Assembly: GCA_948329525.1 (NCBI GenBank)
Contig: CAOJBM010000011.1
Span: forward strand, 1-34,757
Direction of reading: 5' to 3'
DNA length: 34,757 nt
Source: an uncultured Mycoplasmatota bacterium
GTDB lineage: Bacteria; Bacillota_I; Bacilli_A; RF39; UBA660
The position numbers and the translations under genes were made by a program. Below are positions 2,941-20,026 of the stretch, in pieces. Each line of letters opens with the position of its first letter. Position 1 is the stretch's first letter. Below the pieces are notes generated by a model, which was not told where the DNA came from, did not search any database, and saw only the letters and a program-made list of their open reading frames with translations.

Positions 2941-3237
2941 TTAACCCACCACCTTTGGTACTTGTGTTTCTCTACCTTCAGTGTCATCACAATTGTTTTG
3001 CAAATCTCTTAACGGAACAGAAGGTTCAGAAACATCTTCTCGTAAAGAGAAAGAAAAATCATCTAAACAATGAGTCATTGGTTCTACTTCTTCTATATTA
3101 GGGACTTTTGCTACAGCACTAACTGTTTCATCAATGATTTCCATCTCATCTAATACCATTTTATTTTCATCTCTTGTCAAGCCAATTAAGAGGTTATTTG
3201 CTAAGTCATCTACTATTTCTTCTGTAAACTTATTCAT
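2941..3237 (-). CDS. gatC: Asp/Glu-tRNA amidotransferase subunit C
   Basis: This small subunit wraps around the GatA/GatB interface and stabilises the complex. At 98 aa it fits the family. The helical N-terminus (FTEEIVDDLANNLLIGLTRDE) and the C-terminal belt (LREDVSEPSVPLRDLQNN, then VPKVVG) correspond to the usual LREDxxxPSLxRExxLxNAP and VPKVI segments. The start is taken at the second ATG (3237) because AAAGGA sits 9 bases upstream of it and would touch the first ATG at 3246. The gene order C-A-B is the canonical one. Confidence 0.93.
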   Translation of the reverse strand: MNKFTEEIVDDLANNLLIGLTRDENKMVLDEMEIIDETVSAVAKVPNIEEVEPMTHCLDDFSFSLREDVSEPSVPLRDLQNNCDDTEGRETQVPKVVG

Positions 3238-3665: not shown

Positions 3666-5406
3666 CTACATCCACCTGAATTCCCAATTCTTCTAATTGA
3701 TCACTCGTTAAATCTGATGGTGAACCCATCATTAAGTCAGCTCCACTAGCACTTGTTGGGAAGACCTGCACTTCTCTTAAATTAGGTTCATCTAAAATAA
3801 GCATTAGTAATCTATCAATTCCTGGTGCCATTCCACCATGAGGAGGACAGCCATATTTAAATGCCGTAAAGATTGACTTAAATCTTTCTTCTGTTTCTTC
3901 TCTACTATAGCCAACTATTTCAAAACCTTTAGCTAAAGAATCTAAGTCGTGATTTCTTATGGCTCCACTAGCCATTTCATTACCATTACAAACAAAATCA
4001 TATTGATAAGCTAGTATTTCACTAGGTTCTTTTTCTAGATAATCTTTAATTCCTCCATGAGGTAGTGAAAATGGATTATGACAGAACTCATATTTTTTCT
4101 TCACTTCATCATACTCAAACATTGGAAAATCATTAATAATACATAATTCTAATTTATTTTTATCGATTAAATTGCATCTTCTTCCTAACTCATCACGAAT
4201 AAGCCCTGCAAACTTCTCGGCTGTTTTTTTCTTTTTATTAGCAATAAAGAACATTACAGAATTTGTTTTCATAGCAAACTTTTCGATTAAGTTTTTTCTT
4301 TCATCATCTGTTAAAAACTTATCTATTGGACCTTTTAAACTCTCATCTTCCATTAAAGTTACATAACCAATGCCAGGCATACCAATACTTGTAGCATAAT
4401 CAACTATTTCATTAAACCAAGAGTTAGAGTTCACTCCAATATCATCGACAACTATAACTTTAATGGTACTATTTTTAAAAGGATTAAAACTAGTATTTTG
4501 AAGTATTTCTGTGGCATCACAAATAATTAAGGGATTACGTAAATCAGGTTTATCAGTTCCATACATTTCCATAGCATCTTTGTAACTAATTCTTTTAAAT
4601 GGCCGAGGTGATACTTCCTTATCACTAAACTTAGTAAAAGTATCATAAAATATTTCTTCCCCAATATTTAAGACTTCTTCTTCTTTAGCAAAATTCATTT
4701 CTAAATCTAATTGGTAAAATTCGAGTGTTCTATCTGCTCTTGCATCTTCATCACGAAAACAAGGAGCAATTTGAAAGTATTTATCTAATCCTCCTACCAT
4801 TAATAGTTCTTTGTAAATTTGAGGGGCTTGTGGTAGGGCATAAAACTTACCTTTGAAAGATCTTGATGGCACAACAAAATCTCTTGCTCCTTCAGGGCTT
4901 GATGCTGTTAAAATAGGTGTTTGTACTTCCGTAAATCCTAAATCATACATTTTATTTCGTAAATAATGTAAAACTTCACTACGAAGATGTAAAGTTTCTT
5001 TCATCTTTTCATTTCTTAAATCTAAATAACGATACTTAAGTCTTACATCTTCTTTTGTTTTTCTTGAACTCATTATTTCAAAAGGTAGTTCATGTAAAGA
5101 TGCACTTAACACTTCTAAATCCTCAACTAAAAGTTCAATTTTACCAGTTAAAAGACGCTCGTTAATCGTATCTAGACTTCTTTTTCGGATAGTTCCAATT
5201 AGCTTAACAACAGATTCCTTGGCTAGGCCTTTAAACATATTATCATCATTAGATATCGTTTGAATAGTCTCTGTTGTATCTCGTAAATCTAAAAATAATA
5301 CTCCGCCATGGTCCCTTATATTTTCAACCCATCCCGAAATAGTTACTTTTTCGCCGATATTTTTTTCATCCAAGTCTTTTACAAGGACTGTATAATATTT
5401 ATTCAT
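3658..5406 (-). CDS. aspS: aspartate-tRNA ligase, bacterial type
   Basis: This class IIb synthetase joins Asp to tRNA. Visible parts, in order, are an N-terminal OB fold (TISGWVENIRDHGGVLFLDLRD), motif 1 (LGFTEVQTPILTASSPEGARDFVVPSR), motif 2 (CFRDEDARADRTLEFYQLDLEM), the bacteria-specific GAD insertion between about 285 and 415, and motif 3 (PHGGMAPGIDRLLMLI). The 582-aa length and the GAD domain mark the bacterial form, normally discriminating for tRNA(Asp) when AsnRS is present. Motif 2 reads ARADRTLEFYQ where most bacteria have LRADRQPEFTQ. This is one of two AspRS genes in the operon; the archaeal-type one lies at 6802-8091. Confidence 0.96.
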   Translation of the reverse strand: MNKYYTVLVKDLDEKNIGEKVTISGWVENIRDHGGVLFLDLRDTTETIQTISNDDNMFKGLAKESVVKLIGTIRKRSLDTINERLLTGKIELLVEDLEVLSASLHELPFEIMSSRKTKEDVRLKYRYLDLRNEKMKETLHLRSEVLHYLRNKMYDLGFTEVQTPILTASSPEGARDFVVPSRSFKGKFYALPQAPQIYKELLMVGGLDKYFQIAPCFRDEDARADRTLEFYQLDLEMNFAKEEEVLNIGEEIFYDTFTKFSDKEVSPRPFKRISYKDAMEMYGTDKPDLRNPLIICDATEILQNTSFNPFKNSTIKVIVVDDIGVNSNSWFNEIVDYATSIGMPGIGYVTLMEDESLKGPIDKFLTDDERKNLIEKFAMKTNSVMFFIANKKKKTAEKFAGLIRDELGRRCNLIDKNKLELCIINDFPMFEYDEVKKKYEFCHNPFSLPHGGIKDYLEKEPSEILAYQYDFVCNGNEMASGAIRNHDLDSLAKGFEIVGYSREETEERFKSIFTAFKYGCPPHGGMAPGIDRLLMLILDEPNLREVQVFPTSASGADLMMGSPSDLTSDQLEELGIQVDVDE

Positions 5407-5421
5407 TTTTTATTTTCCTTC

Positions 5422-6789
5422 CTAGTATTCGCAATTACCTGGAGTTCTAGGGTATGGTATAACATCTCTTATATTTTCAACGCCTGTTAGATAGATTAGG
5501 AGTCTTTCAAAGCCCATACCAAAGCCGGAATGAACACAACCACCAAATTTTCTTAAATTTAAGTACCATTCCATCGAATCTTTTTCCATACCTAGTTCTT
5601 CCATCCTTGAAACTAACTTATCATAATCTTCTTCTCTTTGGCTACCTCCCATTAACTCCCCAGCACCTGGTACTTCTAAATCGACAGCAGCTACTGTTAA
5701 ATTATCACTATTCTGTTTCATATAGAAAGCCTTAATATCTTTTGGCCAATTCATAATGAATACTGGACCATCAAAATATTCTGTAATATATTTTTCATGT
5801 TCTTTTTGAATATCTTCGCCATATTCTGGTTCAAACTCCCATTTGACATTAGCTTCTTTTAAGATTCTAATTACTTCTTCGTGAGTAATGCGAACAAACT
5901 TTGATTTAACTAATCTATTTAATTTTTCTTTTAATCCTTTCTCAACAAAACTATCAAAGAAATCTATTTCATCACTAGCATTTTCTAAAACGTAAGTTAC
6001 AACATATTTAAGCATATCTTCCATTATGTCCATATCGCCTTCTAAATCACAAAAAGCCATTTCTGGTTCAATCATCCAAAATTCACTAGCATGCGTTTTA
6101 GTATTCGAGTTTTCTGCTCTAAATGTTGGACCAAAAGTATAGACATTTCTATAAGCAAGAGCAAAAGTTTCGGCTTCTAGTTGTCCTGATACTGTTAAAG
6201 CTGTAAATTTATTAAAGAAGTCTTTGGAGTAATCAACTTTTCCACTTTGAGCAACTTTCTCTAAATCAAGAGTTGTTACTTGAAACATTTCTCCTGCTCC
6301 TTCGCAATCACTTGAGGTAATTAAAGGGGCATGGAAATAAACAAATCCTTTTTCCCCGAAATATTTATGAATTGCATATGCTGCAATACTACGAACACGA
6401 AAAACAGCTCCAAAAAGATTAGTTCGTGGACGAAGATAAGCTACTTCTCGTAAAAACTCTCTTGTTGGTCTTCCTTTGGCTTGTAATGGGTAAGTAGAAG
6501 GACAGTCACCTAGTAATTTTATTTCTTTAGCTTTTAACTCAATCTTTTGTTTTCCGCTACTTGCAACTAACTCACCTTTTACTTCGATGGCACAACCTAA
6601 TAAAAAGTGCGTAACTTCGGAAAAATTTACTAAATCTTTATCATAAACAATTTGTAAATGCTTAAAACATGTTCCATCAGAAAAATCAATAAAACCAAAC
6701 TCTTTTTGTGGTCGGTGACTTCTAATCCAACCTTCAACTACTACTTCATCACCTATTTTTTTATCTTTAAACAATTTTATTAATTCCAT
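5422..6789 (-). CDS. asnS: asparagine-tRNA ligase
   Basis: AsnRS charges tRNA(Asn) directly with Asn. The 455-aa protein has an OB fold (VVVEGWIRSHRPQKEFGFIDFSDGTCF), the AsnRS motif 2 (FGPTFRAENSNTKTHASEFWMIEPEMAF) and motif 3 (GFGMGFERLLIYLTGVENIRDVIPYPRTPG). HASEFWMIEPE is diagnostic for AsnRS rather than AspRS. The gene lies 12 bases downstream of the archaeal-type aspS and 15 bases upstream of the bacterial aspS. With GatCAB in the same operon, the cell appears able to make Asn-tRNA(Asn) by either route, or uses GatCAB mainly for Gln-tRNA(Gln). Confidence 0.97.
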   Translation of the reverse strand: MELIKLFKDKKIGDEVVVEGWIRSHRPQKEFGFIDFSDGTCFKHLQIVYDKDLVNFSEVTHFLLGCAIEVKGELVASSGKQKIELKAKEIKLLGDCPSTYPLQAKGRPTREFLREVAYLRPRTNLFGAVFRVRSIAAYAIHKYFGEKGFVYFHAPLITSSDCEGAGEMFQVTTLDLEKVAQSGKVDYSKDFFNKFTALTVSGQLEAETFALAYRNVYTFGPTFRAENSNTKTHASEFWMIEPEMAFCDLEGDMDIMEDMLKYVVTYVLENASDEIDFFDSFVEKGLKEKLNRLVKSKFVRITHEEVIRILKEANVKWEFEPEYGEDIQKEHEKYITEYFDGPVFIMNWPKDIKAFYMKQNSDNLTVAAVDLEVPGAGELMGGSQREEDYDKLVSRMEELGMEKDSMEWYLNLRKFGGCVHSGFGMGFERLLIYLTGVENIRDVIPYPRTPGNCEY

Positions 6790-12958: not shown

Positions 12959-14131
12959 TTATTCTGTTATCTCTTCTTCTATTTGTTCAATAGTGTACTC
13001 TTGAACTTCAGCAATGTTTTCAAGAGCAACGACAAATACATCTATATCTATAATACTATCATTTTGACTCTTTTTCAAAACTTTTTTTGTAACTATTTCA
13101 TAATCACTTTTTAATAACGTTTTCATTTTACTGTTTACTTCATCTTCAACTAACTTATTTAATTCATCTTCTGTGTATTCTTTTGTTTCTGTTTTTACTT
13201 CATAATCTGTTGTAAAATATAGCGAATTACCTAAAATACTTAATATTTTTTTCTCCTCACTAACATAATTATTTAGTCTTGGTTTAAAAATAAGATAACT
13301 ATCATCTTTCCTTTTGAAAGACATATTAAACCTTTTCGCACCTGTTTTAATATTTTCTTTATAAGTAGAAGGAACCTTAATATTAACAGTATACCAAGTA
13401 TTGGCGATTACTTTACCTTCAGCACAAACATTATTTTTTACTTCTTCATTAAATTTAATTGCTCCGCTTACTAAAATATCACCTTTTTTTACGTTCATAT
13501 TGTTAGAGATCAAAGCATCTCCCTTACTTATATTAAAACTTTTTACTAAACCATCCTTTGTTGCTACTAAGTTACAATACTTGTTATTTTCTTGCTTTTC
13601 ATTGATAATTCGTTCTTCAACTCGAATAATGTATTTCATACCTACATTTTCAATACTCAACCACTCTATTTGGTCTTTGTTATTTAAAACTATCTCATTT
13701 TTAATTTTTTCTAAAGTATTAAAATCTTTTTTTATGGTATACTTTTTTATATTATAATCTTTTAAATCACGAAGAATTAATTCTCTTATTAATGGATTAG
13801 TATGAATCACTTTTACTTCTAAGATAATTCTTGATAAAAGAAAACTAAGAACTATAAAAATAATAATGGTTAAATAATAAATTTTCATTTTTTTAAATTT
13901 ATCTTTGTAACCATAAATATTGTAATGTTTAATTATGTTACATTTATAGTACTTTTTTATTTTTTTATAATCAGCATAAGTTATTTTTATAAGAATTTTT
14001 GTCTTTTCATAATCTATTTCATAGATATTTATATTCATCCTATTTAAGCTTTGTATTAGAGATATATTGTTGTTTGTTTTAATTGCTACTTTAACAAAAT
14101 GGGTATATACTTCTTTTAAAGAATCATTCAT
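12959..14131 (-). CDS. yqfD: sporulation protein YqfD
   Basis: YqfD-family proteins are made in the mother cell of endospore formers under sigma-E. The 390-aa protein starts with a cytoplasmic part, has one strong membrane helix near residues 80-102 (MKIYYLTIIIFIVLSFLLSR) and a large outer domain with the family segment KDGLVKSFNISKGDALI...KKGDILVSGAI. It ends with an acidic, lysine-rich tail. It overlaps yqfC by 8 bases, as the pair does elsewhere. Its presence says the lineage sporulates or recently did. Confidence 0.88.
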   Translation of the reverse strand: MNDSLKEVYTHFVKVAIKTNNNISLIQSLNRMNINIYEIDYEKTKILIKITYADYKKIKKYYKCNIIKHYNIYGYKDKFKKMKIYYLTIIIFIVLSFLLSRIILEVKVIHTNPLIRELILRDLKDYNIKKYTIKKDFNTLEKIKNEIVLNNKDQIEWLSIENVGMKYIIRVEERIINEKQENNKYCNLVATKDGLVKSFNISKGDALISNNMNVKKGDILVSGAIKFNEEVKNNVCAEGKVIANTWYTVNIKVPSTYKENIKTGAKRFNMSFKRKDDSYLIFKPRLNNYVSEEKKILSILGNSLYFTTDYEVKTETKEYTEDELNKLVEDEVNSKMKTLLKSDYEIVTKKVLKKSQNDSIIDIDVFVVALENIAEVQEYTIEQIEEEITE

Positions 14132-14411: not shown

Positions 14412-14439
14412 AAAACAAAAAATTAAGCCTTAGCTTAAT
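14412..14439 (-). terminator. intrinsic terminator after yqeY
   Basis: ATTAAGC (14439-14433) pairs with GCTTAAT (14428-14422) followed by T-rich sequence. The yqeY stop codon lies at the end of the stem and start of the loop, so the hairpin begins inside the coding sequence. Confidence 0.8.
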
Positions 14440-14873
14440 CTTTCTCTAATTTTACTACTTACTAGTTTCATATCTGCCTTTGTCCCTAATTTAGCACTAG
14501 CTGTTTTCATAACTACCCCTAAGTCTTTTACAGATTCAGGTTTTAGTTCTGCAAATATTATATCTAATTCCTTATTTATTTCATCTTCAGTCAATTCTTC
14601 TGGTAAATAAACACTTAAAATAGCAATTTCTTGATTTAAGTTTTCTACTAAATCATCTTTACCATAACGCACATACTCTTCTATACTTTCTTTTCTTGTT
14701 TTGACTTGTTTTTTCGTAACTTGAATTACTTCTTCATCAGATAAATCGTGTTTCTTAGTAATTTTTTCCATTTGCAAAGCACTTTTTAGCATACGAAGAG
14801 TATCAAGTCTAATTTTATCCTTATTTTTCATTGCTGTTATTACATCAGAATTAACTTTTTCAACTAAACTCAT
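14430..14873 (-). CDS. yqeY: GatB/YqeY domain protein
   Basis: This stand-alone YqeY protein is homologous to the tRNA-binding tail of GatB. It is 147 aa long, helical, and shows the family core LRMLKSALQMEKI, EVIQVTKKQVKTRKESIEEY, LPEELTEDEI and DLGVVMKTASAKLGTKADMKLVSSKIRERL. Its precise role is unknown; a tRNA-related one is assumed. It is co-transcribed with rpsU (11-base gap), the usual arrangement, and has AGGTGA before its ATG. Confidence 0.93.
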   Translation of the reverse strand: MSLVEKVNSDVITAMKNKDKIRLDTLRMLKSALQMEKITKKHDLSDEEVIQVTKKQVKTRKESIEEYVRYGKDDLVENLNQEIAILSVYLPEELTEDEINKELDIIFAELKPESVKDLGVVMKTASAKLGTKADMKLVSSKIRERLS

Positions 14874-14884
14874 TTTATCACCTA

Positions 14885-15070
14885 TTAATCTCTATGACGT
14901 TTCTTCGAATTTCTAATCATTTCTTTTTTAGCTTCTCTTCTTTTTACCCCTGGTTTTTCATAGTGTTTTCTCTTTTTTAATTCTGAAGGGACACCACTTC
15001 TTGCAACTTTTACTTTAAACTTCCTTAAAGCACCATCGACATTTCCATTAGTTACAACTACTTTTGTCAT
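14885..15070 (-). CDS. rpsU: 30S ribosomal protein S21
   Basis: S21 is a small basic protein of the 30S subunit near the anti-Shine-Dalgarno region. The 61-aa sequence has GALRKFKVKVARSGVPSELKKRKHYEKPGVKRREAK, which is fully characteristic. GGGAGG lies upstream of the ATG, and a strong sigma-A promoter at 15101-15129 drives it with yqeY. Confidence 0.97.
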   Translation of the reverse strand: MTKVVVTNGNVDGALRKFKVKVARSGVPSELKKRKHYEKPGVKRREAKKEMIRNSKKRHRD

Positions 15071-16162: not shown

Positions 16163-17035
16163 TTATAAAGAACTATAGTAAGATTTGATATTATTATCGT
16201 TTCGTGAATCACTTTTATTAATAATATATTTATTGTCAATAAATGAGGTTATATTAATACTTCTATTCAACCAAGCAATACTAGGTAAGTCATCGATATT
16301 ATCTCCATATACTTGGGTTAAATCAATTAAAATAAAGCTATCAAAATAGATAGGAATATTCCCACTATAATTATATTCCATGACGAAATCCCATATTTTA
16401 GCAGTACTATTTACTTTAACAATAGAACCTAATACACCCCAGTTAAAGGTTCCATCTATGGAAACAGTATTCAAATTACTAAATAAAGATTGTTCTATTA
16501 ATAAATTTGGATTATCTACATTATTATAATCTAACGTCTTAAAAGCATATACATTAGTAGTTCCATTATCATTAGTACCTTGTAAATAAACATTAGCATT
16601 ACTAAAAGATACAGTTTGACCAAATGTATAATATCTTCTTTGTAAATAATAAATATGACCATTTTGAAGACCATTATATTTTAATTTTTTAAAATATTCC
16701 AAATCTAATCTTTGAGTTATACTACCTACTCCATTATCAAGTTTTATACTAAAAGAACCATTATAATGTTGATTTATAACTTTAGAAGCACTACCCGCTG
16801 TTTTAAAATAAGTATCTGCTCCTGATTCAAAATCCGAATCTTGTAATAGATTTTTTAAATTAGCTAATTTATTGTTCCCTCTTGCATTTAAATCATTTTT
16901 TATTTCCATATTAAAATCTCTTACTAATAAACGATTATGAGCATAATTAGAAAGTAAAATTGCAGATATGAGAGCAAAAACTAAAAAGAAGGAATAAATT
17001 ATAGATGTTGCAAAAAAGCCATTTTTTTCTTTCAA
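16163..17035 (-). CDS. pilin-like anchored protein with a beta-sandwich ectodomain
   Basis: The product is a 290-aa exported protein. The N-terminus is a short basic stretch, then NGFFATSIIYSFFLVFALIS, one long hydrophobic helix, and NYAHNRLLVRDFNME. This resembles the lollipop stem of type IV pilin-like proteins (cleavage possible after G), although the usual Glu5 is missing. From about residue 65 on, DSDFESGADTYF and repeated aromatic strands suggest a carbohydrate-binding-module-like sandwich, a weak inference. The TTG at 17035 is preferred because AGGAG is 8 bases upstream; the GTG at 17044 touches it. It lies immediately after the bacteriocin terminator and is probably independent. Confidence 0.7.
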   Translation of the reverse strand: MKEKNGFFATSIIYSFFLVFALISAILLSNYAHNRLLVRDFNMEIKNDLNARGNNKLANLKNLLQDSDFESGADTYFKTAGSASKVINQHYNGSFSIKLDNGVGSITQRLDLEYFKKLKYNGLQNGHIYYLQRRYYTFGQTVSFSNANVYLQGTNDNGTTNVYAFKTLDYNNVDNPNLLIEQSLFSNLNTVSIDGTFNWGVLGSIVKVNSTAKIWDFVMEYNYSGNIPIYFDSFILIDLTQVYGDNIDDLPSIAWLNRSINITSFIDNKYIINKSDSRNDNNIKSYYSSL

Positions 17036-17079
17036 TATGCCCACTCCTATTCTTTAGATATTATAACGTAAAAGAAGAC

Positions 17080-17105
17080 AAAAAAAAAGAGGTTTATCCT
17101 CTTTT
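17080..17105 (-). terminator. intrinsic terminator of the bacteriocin operon
   Basis: AAAAGAGG (17105-17098) pairs with CCTCTTTT (17092-17085), with loop ATAAA, followed by a run of T. It lies 5 bases after the stop of the second peptide gene. Confidence 0.92.
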
Positions 17106-17109
17106 CGGC

Positions 17110-17271
17110 TTAAATTCTACAAGCTTGGCCAGTTCTACCACGTCTTATAGCAGTACCAACAGTTCTACCAAAATCAAGTAGTTTATTAAAACCATTAATT
17201 ATTGAGTTAATTAAAGCTGCAGAGATTGCACCACCTGTTATATTAACTAATTCTTTATTATTTAATGTCAT
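17110..17271 (-). CDS. double-glycine bacteriocin precursor, peptide A (53 aa)
   Basis: This short secreted-peptide precursor has a textbook C39 leader: Leu-12, Glu-8, Leu-7, Ile-4, Gly-2, Gly-1 (LNNKELVNITGG). Cleavage after Gly14 would release 39 residues. The mature part is amphipathic (AISAALINSIINGFNKLLDF), then has a GRTVG (GxxxG) motif, a basic cluster IRRGR, and one Cys three residues from the C-terminus. AGGAG lies 9 bases before the ATG. It is the last gene of the unit headed by the C39 exporter. The GxxxG motif here and in peptide B suggests a two-peptide (class IIb) bacteriocin; a pheromone is the alternative. Confidence 0.88.
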   Translation of the reverse strand: MTLNNKELVNITGGAISAALINSIINGFNKLLDFGRTVGTAIRRGRTGQACRI

Positions 17272-17288
17272 GCTAAATTTCTCCTCTC

Positions 17289-17426
17289 TTAATTACATTT
17301 TTTTGGTCTTAAATAACCATCAATTACACCAATAGTAAATACTACAATTCCAGCTGCTATAAAAGCAAATGTCTTCCAACTACCGCCAATAGTATTAACT
17401 AGTTCTTCATTACTTAAACTTTTCAT
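17289..17426 (-). CDS. double-glycine bacteriocin precursor, peptide B (45 aa)
   Basis: The 45-aa precursor has leader LSNEELVNTIGG, cleaved after Gly15. The 30-residue mature peptide is hydrophobic (WKTFAFIAAGIVVFTIG), contains GVIDG (GxxxG) and ends GYLRPKKCN with a single Cys. One membrane-spanning helix is predicted by eye. AAAGGG precedes the ATG, and 17 bases separate its stop from the start of peptide A. The two precursors share leader wording (E/K-ELVN, GG) but not mature sequence, as expected of complementary peptides. Activity is inferred, not shown. Confidence 0.88.
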   Translation of the reverse strand: MKSLSNEELVNTIGGSWKTFAFIAAGIVVFTIGVIDGYLRPKKCN

Positions 17427-17446
17427 CTAAAACACCCTTTCTAATT

Positions 17447-17872
17447 CTAATTTAAGATCCTTTTTATTCTTTCTTTGATACTTTGTTTTTCTTTTAACAC
17501 TTTAACTTTTTGCATAACTGAAGTTTTAAAACAATCATTTTTTTCAATCACAAACTCAATATTGTTATATCCTTGTCCCATAGATTCATCAATAAAAGGA
17601 GTAATTTTTATATCTTGCAAATCATAACTTTTATCATCACAAACAACTTGTTTAATTTGTGATATTTTTTCGCTTTGTTCTAAAGGTAAGACTGATGATA
17701 AGACAACTTTATCAGGAAATTCTTCTGGTATAACATACATATATTCAAAATTTTGTAAGGTAAGGGGTAATAGTTTTATGAATAATAAAATTAAAAGAAT
17801 GGTCGTCAAAAAAATCAATTTATTAACTTTAATTTTTTCATTAAATGGGAATAATATATTAGTATGTTTCAA
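17447..17872 (-). CDS. very short HlyD-like accessory protein of the exporter
   Basis: The 141-aa protein has a cytoplasmic tail, one membrane helix at about 19-39, and an outer domain. The final part (YNNIEFVIEKNDCFKTSVM, then QKVKVLKEKQSIKERIKRIL) reads like the end of HlyD/ComB/MesE adaptors, where a beta-barrel is followed by GMxgxVkIxxgkqslxxxil. The coiled-coil hairpin and lipoyl halves of a normal 450-aa adaptor are missing. Its ATG overlaps the exporter stop by 4 bases (ATGA), so the two are translationally coupled. An immunity role is the main alternative, since no other immunity candidate is in the operon. Confidence 0.65.
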   Translation of the reverse strand: MKHTNILFPFNEKIKVNKLIFLTTILLILLFIKLLPLTLQNFEYMYVIPEEFPDKVVLSSVLPLEQSEKISQIKQVVCDDKSYDLQDIKITPFIDESMGQGYNNIEFVIEKNDCFKTSVMQKVKVLKEKQSIKERIKRILN

Positions 17873-19926
17873 GACATATCACTTCCTAAAGTTATTCTTG
17901 CATCAAAGCAATTTTTAAGTTTTCTATGAGATACATAAATAATTGTCTTATCTTGATATTTCTTTTTCAAATTAGAAATAATCAACTTCTCTAGTTCTTC
18001 ACTAACTTCACTTAAAACTTCATCTAAAATTAAAATATTTTTATTTTGAAGTAAAGCTCTAGCTAGAATCAATCTTTGCTTTTCTCCACCAGATAAATTT
18101 GCTCCCTCATCTATTAACATTGTATCAAGTCTTAAAGGTTTTTTTTCTAAAATATCTTCTAAAGAACATGTTGTTATAACTTCTTTTAAATCTTGCTCAC
18201 TTATTTCTTTAGACAGAGTTAGATTATTATAGATCGTATCGGTAAACAATTTTTCATCTTGTGAAACATATGTGATACTATTTCTTATCGAACTAGTATC
18301 AATATCTTTAATATTTATACCATCTATTAAGATTTTACCTTTATAATCTTCATCATATTTCATTAAAAGTTTACAAATTGTACTTTTACCAACTCCACTC
18401 TTCCCATCAATAAATACTTTAGTACCTTTTATGATTTTAGAAGAAAAATTTTTAATGACATCTTGATATCCGTTGTAAGAGTAAGATAAATTTTTAATAT
18501 CAATGTCCCCATCTACAGAAAGAGTTTCTTGAAGAAGTTTTTCTTCTTTTAAATCAATAAATTCATTAATTTTGGCAAAAGATACTTTAAGAATATTATA
18601 TTTAGGGATGATATCAGCCAGTTCTTTTACTGGAGAAAGAAAATAACTTACTAATGAATTAAAAGTTACTAAATTTATTAATGATAATTGATTTTTAAGA
18701 ATTAAGTAAATTCCAAGACAGTTAATTAGAGTTAAACCAACTTCATTAATAAAATTTAAAATACTTCTTTCATTATTGATTAAATTATTAAAGTTATAAG
18801 TGCCTTTAATAAAAGCTAGATTAGCAAATTCTAACTTTGAACAAACATTTTCAACTATATTTAGATTCTTTATTGATTCAATATTACCAATATTTTCTAC
18901 TAATTTAGAGTTGAAATCTGTTTCAAGTTCAATATTATCATTAAGTTTTCTATAAATTATTGGGCTATAAATTAAACTAACTAGTACATATAGCAAAACT
19001 ATTAAACAAAGTATCAAAAATAGTTTTTTACTAATAATATAGAGAATAAAAACAGTTGAAAGAGCAAGTACTGAGTCAAGTAAAAATGATAATAAAAGAC
19101 TAGTAAACATTTCTTTAATTGAAGAATAATCATTTACCCTTGTCATTATTTCTCCTTCACTTCTATTCTTAATGATATTTGAAGGTAGATAAAATAAGTG
19201 ATTAATAAAAGGTATAATCATTCGCCCATCAAGATTTTTATTTAAATAAATTTCATATTTCGTCTTTTCACGATCTAAGAACACTTTCAAAATTGTCATA
19301 ATTAAGTAAGTTAGTAATATAGCAAGTATAAACGTAACAGAATTGTATTCTAATAAGTCAATTGAAATCTTTAAATAAAACGAAAGAATTATATTAAGAA
19401 ATAAGGAACAAATACTAAATATTATTATAAAATTCAATATTTTTTTATCTTTGGAAACAGCTTTTAAAAAAGTTGCTAAAACTGATTTGTCTTGATGCAT
19501 TTTTAGAATTTTAGTTCTAGGCTTAAGGATTATACATACTCCTGTCCATAACTCATTAAATTCTTTTTTTGAAAACTTAACATAACCTTTGGCTGGGTCC
19601 ATTATTGTAACTCTATTTTTATCGATTTTATAAATAACTACAAAGTGGAACATATTATTTTTCAGTTTTAGATGCGCAATTATTGGTAGGATTTGAGCAC
19701 TATTTAATAATTCATTATAATTAGTCTTAATTCCTTTTCCATCTAAGCCATAAGTATTACTTGCTTTAATAATATTTAAGGCAGTTGTTCCTTCAATATT
19801 TGTATGAGTATCAAGTCTAATTTTTTCAATAGGTATGTAACCACCATAATATTTAATAATCGATAACAAACAGCACGCCCCACAATCTCTTGCATCTCGT
19901 TGTTTGATGACATACTCTTTTTTCAT
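17869..19926 (-). CDS. peptidase-containing ABC exporter for double-glycine peptides
   Basis: The 685-aa protein fuses an N-terminal C39 cysteine protease, a membrane domain and an ATPase. The protease triad is Cys15 (ARDCGACCL), His94 (MFHFVVIY) and Asp110 (MDPAKG). Membrane helices occupy about 150-460. The ATPase has Walker A GKSGVGKST (from 508), signature LSGGEKQ (from 611), Walker B ILILDE (from 631) and the switch His667; the D-loop reads SEVS instead of SALD. It should cleave leaders after the double Gly and export the peptides at 17110-17426. The start at 19926 is chosen for GGGAGG 10 bases upstream; the frame opens at 19974. Confidence 0.95.
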   Translation of the reverse strand: MKKEYVIKQRDARDCGACCLLSIIKYYGGYIPIEKIRLDTHTNIEGTTALNIIKASNTYGLDGKGIKTNYNELLNSAQILPIIAHLKLKNNMFHFVVIYKIDKNRVTIMDPAKGYVKFSKKEFNELWTGVCIILKPRTKILKMHQDKSVLATFLKAVSKDKKILNFIIIFSICSLFLNIILSFYLKISIDLLEYNSVTFILAILLTYLIMTILKVFLDREKTKYEIYLNKNLDGRMIIPFINHLFYLPSNIIKNRSEGEIMTRVNDYSSIKEMFTSLLLSFLLDSVLALSTVFILYIISKKLFLILCLIVLLYVLVSLIYSPIIYRKLNDNIELETDFNSKLVENIGNIESIKNLNIVENVCSKLEFANLAFIKGTYNFNNLINNERSILNFINEVGLTLINCLGIYLILKNQLSLINLVTFNSLVSYFLSPVKELADIIPKYNILKVSFAKINEFIDLKEEKLLQETLSVDGDIDIKNLSYSYNGYQDVIKNFSSKIIKGTKVFIDGKSGVGKSTICKLLMKYDEDYKGKILIDGINIKDIDTSSIRNSITYVSQDEKLFTDTIYNNLTLSKEISEQDLKEVITTCSLEDILEKKPLRLDTMLIDEGANLSGGEKQRLILARALLQNKNILILDEVLSEVSEELEKLIISNLKKKYQDKTIIYVSHRKLKNCFDARITLGSDMS

Positions 19927-20026
19927 CTCTTGTTTTCCTCCCTTCACCCTTACTATTACACTATCGAAGTCCAAATTCCTCTTTTATTTTTAAAATTTCT
20001 TTATTTTTTGAACATTTTTGAAGCTT

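Follow-up and report, generated by a model that had tools for sequence, protein, structure and literature searches.

A conserved two-peptide locus with its own C39 exporter and a predicted SigH-type promoter in the family UBA660

What purpose do two short peptides with double-glycine (GG) leaders, encoded beside a peptidase-containing exporter, serve in an uncultured Mycoplasmatota bacterium of the family UBA660 (Bacillota_I; Bacilli_A; RF39)? The question is raised by a locus on contig CAOJBM010000011.1 of GenBank assembly GCA_948329525.1, the whole 34,757 nucleotides (nt) of which are called the window below. An earlier note on this DNA had described a compact two-peptide bacteriocin locus that might make a new narrow-spectrum antimicrobial or signal. 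Our data indicate that the locus is near-universal in the source family, vertically inherited and present as a single copy, and that its promoter is of a type found also upstream of comEA. The favoured explanation, to which a probability of about one half was assigned, is a family-wide, vertically inherited class IIb-type two-peptide system that is switched by SigH and attacks the membranes of nearby cells at competence or at the transition phase.

Anatomy of the operon and its products

The operon lies on the reverse strand of the window and is read in the order exporter, accessory protein, peptide 2, peptide 1 and terminator (lengths in amino acids, aa):

19953-19982 (-): SigH-type promoter AGAGGAATT-N12-GTGTAATAG, -35 block from 56 nt before the exporter ATG
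17869-19926 (-): exporter of the ATP-binding cassette (ABC) type with a C39 peptidase, 685 aa, ATG start at 19926
17447-17872 (-): accessory protein of 141 aa, whose TTG start overlaps the stop of the exporter
17289-17426 (-): peptide 2 precursor, 45 aa, 15-residue GG leader and 30-residue mature part
17110-17271 (-): peptide 1 precursor, 53 aa, 14-residue GG leader and 39-residue mature part
17084-17106 (-): intrinsic terminator closing the operon, 9-pair stem followed by a T run
14885-15070 (-): rpsU, conserved downstream neighbour, given for context and outside the operon
14430-14873 (-): yqeY, conserved downstream neighbour, given for context and outside the operon

The two open reading frames (ORFs) of 53 and 45 codons had been reported in the earlier note with correct coordinates and leaders, and the lengths of 39 and 30 residues given there for the mature parts agree with the ORFs. 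Both are preceded by good ribosome-binding sites. Peptide 1 consists of the leader MTLNNKELVNITGG and the mature part AISAALINSIINGFNKLLDFGRTVGTAIRRGRTGQACRI, and peptide 2 of the leader MKSLSNEELVNTIGG and the mature part SWKTFAFIAAGIVVFTIGVIDGYLRPKKCN. The terminator claimed for the unit was located at 17084-17106 (-), the sole such site in the region (0.4 expected), and an Rfam search of the window gave no match. The locus was thus as described, with four features overlooked: the 141-aa gene at 17447-17872, the promoter, the conservation across the family and an invariant cysteine in each peptide.

The mature part of peptide 2 comprises one transmembrane-like helix, the motif GVIDG, an RP pair and one cysteine, while that of peptide 1 is cationic and carries GRTVG and one cysteine. 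Comparison of the window with 100 fetched loci confirmed the GxxxG motif previously noticed in each mature part: it was kept in 95 of 97 relatives of peptide 1 and in 100 of 100 relatives of peptide 2, against 29% and 49% of shuffled sequences, respectively, and is therefore not a product of chance. Peptide 2 ends in the signature FxxGxxDGxxRPxxC, whose first glycine was conserved in 99, second glycine in 100, proline in 97 and cysteine in 100 of 100 sequences. The corresponding signature of peptide 1 is GRxxG[ST]AIRR...C, with the cysteine present in 100 of 100 loci; these peptides were collected with a model omitting the C-terminal cysteine, so that its conservation is not circular. Exactly one cysteine was found in more than 90% of the mature peptides. 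As both co-secreted peptides have a single invariant cysteine, a disulfide may join peptide 1 to peptide 2, and the paired cysteines predict a specific covalent heterodimer.

Known peptide models covered these sequences in part. Model TIGR03949 (Lactobin A/cerein 7B) gave 18.8 bits with peptide 1, mostly over the leader, and 21.2 bits with peptide 2, neither reaching the curated cut-off of 21.5; 27 of 38 relatives of peptide 2 matched it at E values up to 0.01. The likeness extends over the leader and part of the hydrophobic helix, whereas the C-terminal signatures FxxGxxDGxxRPxxC and GRxxGxAIRR...C lie outside the model. No library model matched the mature parts of either peptide, and searches of solved structures with the peptides returned leader or chance matches only.

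The exporter displayed the domains Peptidase_C39 (PF03412, E 7e-37; approximately 19513-19917), ABC_membrane (PF00664, E 6e-25) and ABC_tran (PF00005, E 2e-27) of Pfam. Its Gln, Cys, His, Asp and Walker residues were kept in 89 to 95 of 95 relatives, in agreement with the complete triad and ATPase claimed earlier. It matched TIGR01193 over its full length (E 1.8e-118) with 397 bits, under the cut-off of 523.85, and was the sole PF03412 match in the genome of the window. It resembles the C39 ABC transporters of TIGR01193 in its C39, membrane and ATPase domains and in its conserved catalytic residues, but instead of a full-length protein of the HlyD/LcnD type it is accompanied by a short one of 141 aa that belongs to no known family. 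This accessory protein is composed of an N-terminal transmembrane helix and approximately 100 further residues, had no match in Pfam or NCBIfam, and yielded a poor AlphaFold model (predicted local distance difference test, pLDDT, 58). A homologous-looking gene occupied its position in 64 of 96 loci. Adjacent short GG precursors, GxxxG in each of them, a dedicated C39 exporter and, in these 64 loci, the accessory protein make up a class IIb-like anatomy, which is strongly supported by conservation over about 100 loci.

In 48 of 96 loci (among them L029, L032, L036, L038-L040 and about 40 others), a third small gene directly followed that of peptide 1, its start usually overlapping the peptide 1 stop. 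The product is leaderless, 42 to 70 aa long, and combines a transmembrane-like helix with a C-terminus (GRxxGTxxR...C) similar to that of mature peptide 1; GxxxG was present in 49 of 49 sequences, the arginine in 42 of 49, and a C-terminal cysteine often. These features might suit an immunity protein, a membrane-bound partner or a third subunit. The locus of the window is devoid of it and has the accessory protein only.

Distribution and inheritance within the family

Homologues of peptide 2 were detected in 177 of 193 genomes and 136 of 148 genera of the source family by single-sequence search (E up to 1), almost always at one place per genome. A peptide 1 profile (E up to 0.001) matched 110 of 117 genomes and 66 of 68 genera of the order, a sample taken at order level in which every genome drawn nevertheless belonged to the source family. 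Profile searches beyond the family drew on 395 genomes of the class and 392 of the phylum; among 341 class genomes and the non-family ones of the phylum set, they gave a small number of weak matches, which lay mainly in the leader. Inspected candidates for homologues outside the family were rejected, L159 being a Mycoplasma-like 130-aa protein and L160 an unrelated 55-aa peptide. The former (5039-5431 (-), genome G195) has a GG leader and is encoded beside ribosomal protein genes in a Mycoplasma-like genome, its frames being read with TGA as Trp; it hints that GG peptides may occur in wall-less relatives. A plasmid origin of the operon was likewise rejected: the peptides matched no plasmid and just 3-5% of the operon DNA matched any.

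Peptide 1 was encoded directly 3' of peptide 2 in 100 of 101 loci, and the exporter upstream of them in 99. Of the 101 loci, 63 had rpsU downstream in the same orientation, usually with yqeY (clustered in 52 loci). The distances of peptides and exporter followed those of yqeY, taken as a housekeeping yardstick (Mantel r 0.54 and 0.46, respectively, p 0.001). Vertical inheritance was deduced from this fixed gene order and from the distances tracking yqeY.

Each surveyed genome bearing the locus contained one strong C39 exporter match, that of the operon itself. The exporter was also absent from 12 peptide-less genomes, one of which had a weak match in a 1073-aa frame, and peptides and exporter are therefore kept or lost together; in three further, seemingly peptide-less genomes the exporter runs into a contig end. 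Between loci, peptide 1 showed a median identity of 41% and peptide 2 one of 43%; the exporter reached 34% and the accessory protein 18%. Between the window and a sister species, the ratio of non-synonymous to synonymous substitution rates (dN/dS) was 0.04, 0.10, 0.11 and 0.26 for these genes in the same order, few sites being available in the peptides. The peptides surpass their exporter in conservation and are under strong purifying selection.

In the window, two extra genes separate the peptides from rpsU. A 293-aa protein with a pilin-like N-terminus (KNGFFATSIIYSFFLVF) is encoded in this interval at 16163-17044 (-); it had no NCBIfam match and a sub-threshold match to CBM_4_9, and similar proteins occur in loci L041 and L045.

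A SigH-type promoter common with comEA

Upstream of the exporter, SigA promoters were not enriched: at least 10 of 12 positions matched in 6% of loci, against 19% of shuffles. De novo word counts over 87 loci picked out two words: AAGGAAAT, which occurred in 24 loci where 3.3 were expected, and TGTGAATA, which occurred in 11 where 0.7 were expected. The assembled element, AAAGGAAAT-N11/12-nTnG[AT]ATAT, starts about 51 nt before the exporter start codon and matches the sigma-H consensus RNAGGAWWW / RNNGAATWW (PMC8510167). A matrix built from the 87 family loci scored at least 12 bits at 48% of exporter loci, as against 0.5% of the 661 further ORFs that these loci contain.

Since the exporter loci were the training set of this matrix, an independent gene was needed, and comEA was tested. 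An element of at least 12 bits was present upstream of comEA in 18 of 27 genomes, nearly always at the same spacing. At a 10-bit threshold, elements occurred at both exporter and comEA in 18 genomes, at the exporter only in two, at comEA only in none and at neither in seven (Fisher p 4e-5, a statistic that ignores relatedness). In the genome of the window, where comEA is followed by comEC, the comEA element scored 18.1 bits; that of the exporter is weaker, as it scored 13.1 bits and its -10 region departs from GAAT at one position.

Additionally, the exact pattern occurred 49 times in 25 genomes and its reversed form 18 times. Among the genes situated 20-24 nt downstream of these matches were dnaG, in six genomes, and comEA, in a single one; a SpoIIAA-like gene lay further downstream of another match. 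In B. subtilis, the dnaG-rpoD and spoIIA operons are sigma-H targets. A SigH-like factor was encoded in most of the genomes examined; that of the window's genome has 202 aa and stands in the order mrnC-rlmB-sigH-secE-nusG, the classical locus. Its score stays under the cut-off of TIGR02859, which holds for every family genome that was examined. From the promoter type common to operon and comEA, the operon can be placed in a predicted SigH regulon.

Several other genes were encountered in this context. In L235 (G136:C9, approximately 2993-3020), a short GG-leader frame (MQLKDTELQSISGGCLMVIRNMVNLIRCVIKSFKII) is located 45 nt after the same SigH-type element, a sequence arrangement which suggests that more secreted peptides belong to the putative regulon. 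In L224 and L225, such an element lies 24-27 nt ahead of the start of large surface-type proteins that contain repeated domains. In L046, L076 and about 20 other loci, two genes recur upstream of the exporter, often on the opposite strand: one for a LuxR-type regulator of 68 aa, the other for a protein that looks, by eye, like SpoIIIAH. The window also encodes the sporulation protein YqfD at 12959-14131 (-) (TIGR02876, E 2.5e-50, below cut-off), which fits a spore-forming ancestry. Together with small genomes, such sporulation genes would agree with the account of the order RF39 given in PMC10868615.

Possible functions and relation to known systems

The promoter common to operon and comEA implies that the peptides probably kill or permeabilise neighbours when cells can take up DNA. 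Active SigH would lead to transcription of the operon, and the C39 exporter would cut off the GG leaders and secrete both peptides. The two helices may then pair via their invariant GxxxG motifs, possibly locked by the inter-peptide disulfide, and insert into the membrane of nearby cells. Sibling or neighbouring cells would be permeabilised or lysed while the producer makes its DNA-uptake machinery, as with CibAB in pneumococcus, and the producer would presumably be self-protected. This reading builds on the observed gene content, conservation and distribution, on the loss of the peptides together with the exporter and on the promoter common with comEA. The GxxxG pairs, the operon's own C39 exporter and the comEA-type promoter together make membrane attack at competence or transition phase the best explanation, held at even odds as said above.

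Several observations weigh against it. No SigH element was seen at about 40% of exporter loci, and the covariation with comEA suffers from the neglect of relatedness in its statistic. A loss of competence together with the peptides was looked for and rejected, as nine of the 12 peptide-less genomes keep comEA-like genes (one of the nine matches being weak). No immunity protein was recognised; the only candidates for one are the accessory and the third protein, both of which are missing from 23 of 96 loci. Finally, the family genomes are mostly draft assemblies.

The anatomy would also suit an ordinary class IIb bacteriocin directed against other gut bacteria, which happens to be kept and for which SigH means stationary-phase expression with no link to DNA uptake. 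The presence of the SigH element at dnaG and sporulation-type genes, and the existence of lineages that keep the peptides and lack the element at both exporter and comEA, agree with this possibility. However, the locus is near-universal and slow-evolving in more than 130 genera, unlike typical variable bacteriocin loci, and its promoter tracks that of comEA; we consider this possibility rather doubtful. Of the earlier proposal, the class IIb-like anatomy held, but a new narrow-spectrum antimicrobial is not the best fit: a near-universal, vertically inherited, single-copy locus, with the peptides as its most conserved genes and a promoter of the SigH type, is no accessory weapon of single strains.

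The signal proposed as its alternative appears improbable. One or both peptides would be a competence or density pheromone leaving through the C39 transporter, like ComC via ComA, and the GG leaders and C39 export typical of ComC-type pheromones, the competence-regulon link and the high conservation are compatible with that. Yet pheromones generally differ from one species to the next, the conserved neighbours included neither a histidine kinase nor a response regulator, and two co-conserved GxxxG peptides with a transmembrane-like helix in peptide 2 fit membrane insertion better. The least probable reading is that the peptides are no weapon and stay at, or return to, the producer membrane, serving for example DNA uptake or an envelope change at the competence or sporulation transition. 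The 23 loci with no immunity candidate, the invariant cysteines under strong purifying selection, the element common with competence and sporulation-type genes, and the leaderless peptide-1-like membrane protein co-encoded in half of the loci could all be accommodated by such a device; the persistence of comEA in most peptide-less genomes argues against it, and we know of no precedent in studied competence machines. A more specific proposal, which we advance as tentative, is an ancestral core system of the whole family for fratricide or for action on the producer itself. In it, a disulfide heterodimer would be made only in the SigH state of competence or transition, and half of the lineages would possess a leaderless, membrane-anchored mimic of peptide 1 that confers immunity or acts as a third subunit.

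If membrane attack at competence is correct, the coupling of competence and peptides would be old and general, being fixed across Bacilli of more than 130 genera, mostly uncultured and with small genomes, and natural transformability of these bacteria would be suggested; to our knowledge, the family has no cultured member. The locus could also be used as a marker for the source family. As far as the libraries used show, the peptide family, the invariant cysteine pair, the peptide-1-like third protein, SigH in the place of ComX and the family-wide fixation are new. First detection is not claimed, and a genome-mining atlas of class II bacteriocins from gut genomes exists (IIBacFinder, PMC12648078). 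The system is not a new category either, because its anatomy is that of class IIb and bacteriocins tied to competence have been described before.

In streptococci, two-peptide bacteriocins are known to serve predation coupled to competence, Cib being exported by ComAB. CibAB is a late-competence product of pneumococcus and cibAB is described as universal in S. pneumoniae; likewise, CabAB of S. mitis is a competence-associated two-peptide bacteriocin exported by ComAB (PMC13059744). In Lactobacillus sakei, a sigma-H-like factor activates late competence genes (PMC3364868). The present system resembles the latter in that a sigma-H-like factor would drive competence genes in a member of the Bacilli, but includes a two-peptide operon in the predicted regulon, the word bacteriocin being absent from PMC3364868. 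With CibAB/CibC and CabAB it has in common the paired GG-leader peptides and a predicted expression in the competent state that relies on a SigH/ComX-like alternative sigma factor, and with CibAB the near-fixation in its clade; the likeness to CibA and CibB is one of described features. It differs from the CibAB/CibC system in that no CibC-like immunity protein was recognised in the family loci, and from both CibAB and CabAB in that its operon carries its own C39 exporter, in the invariant cysteine of each peptide, and in having SigH at the ancestral locus rather than ComX.
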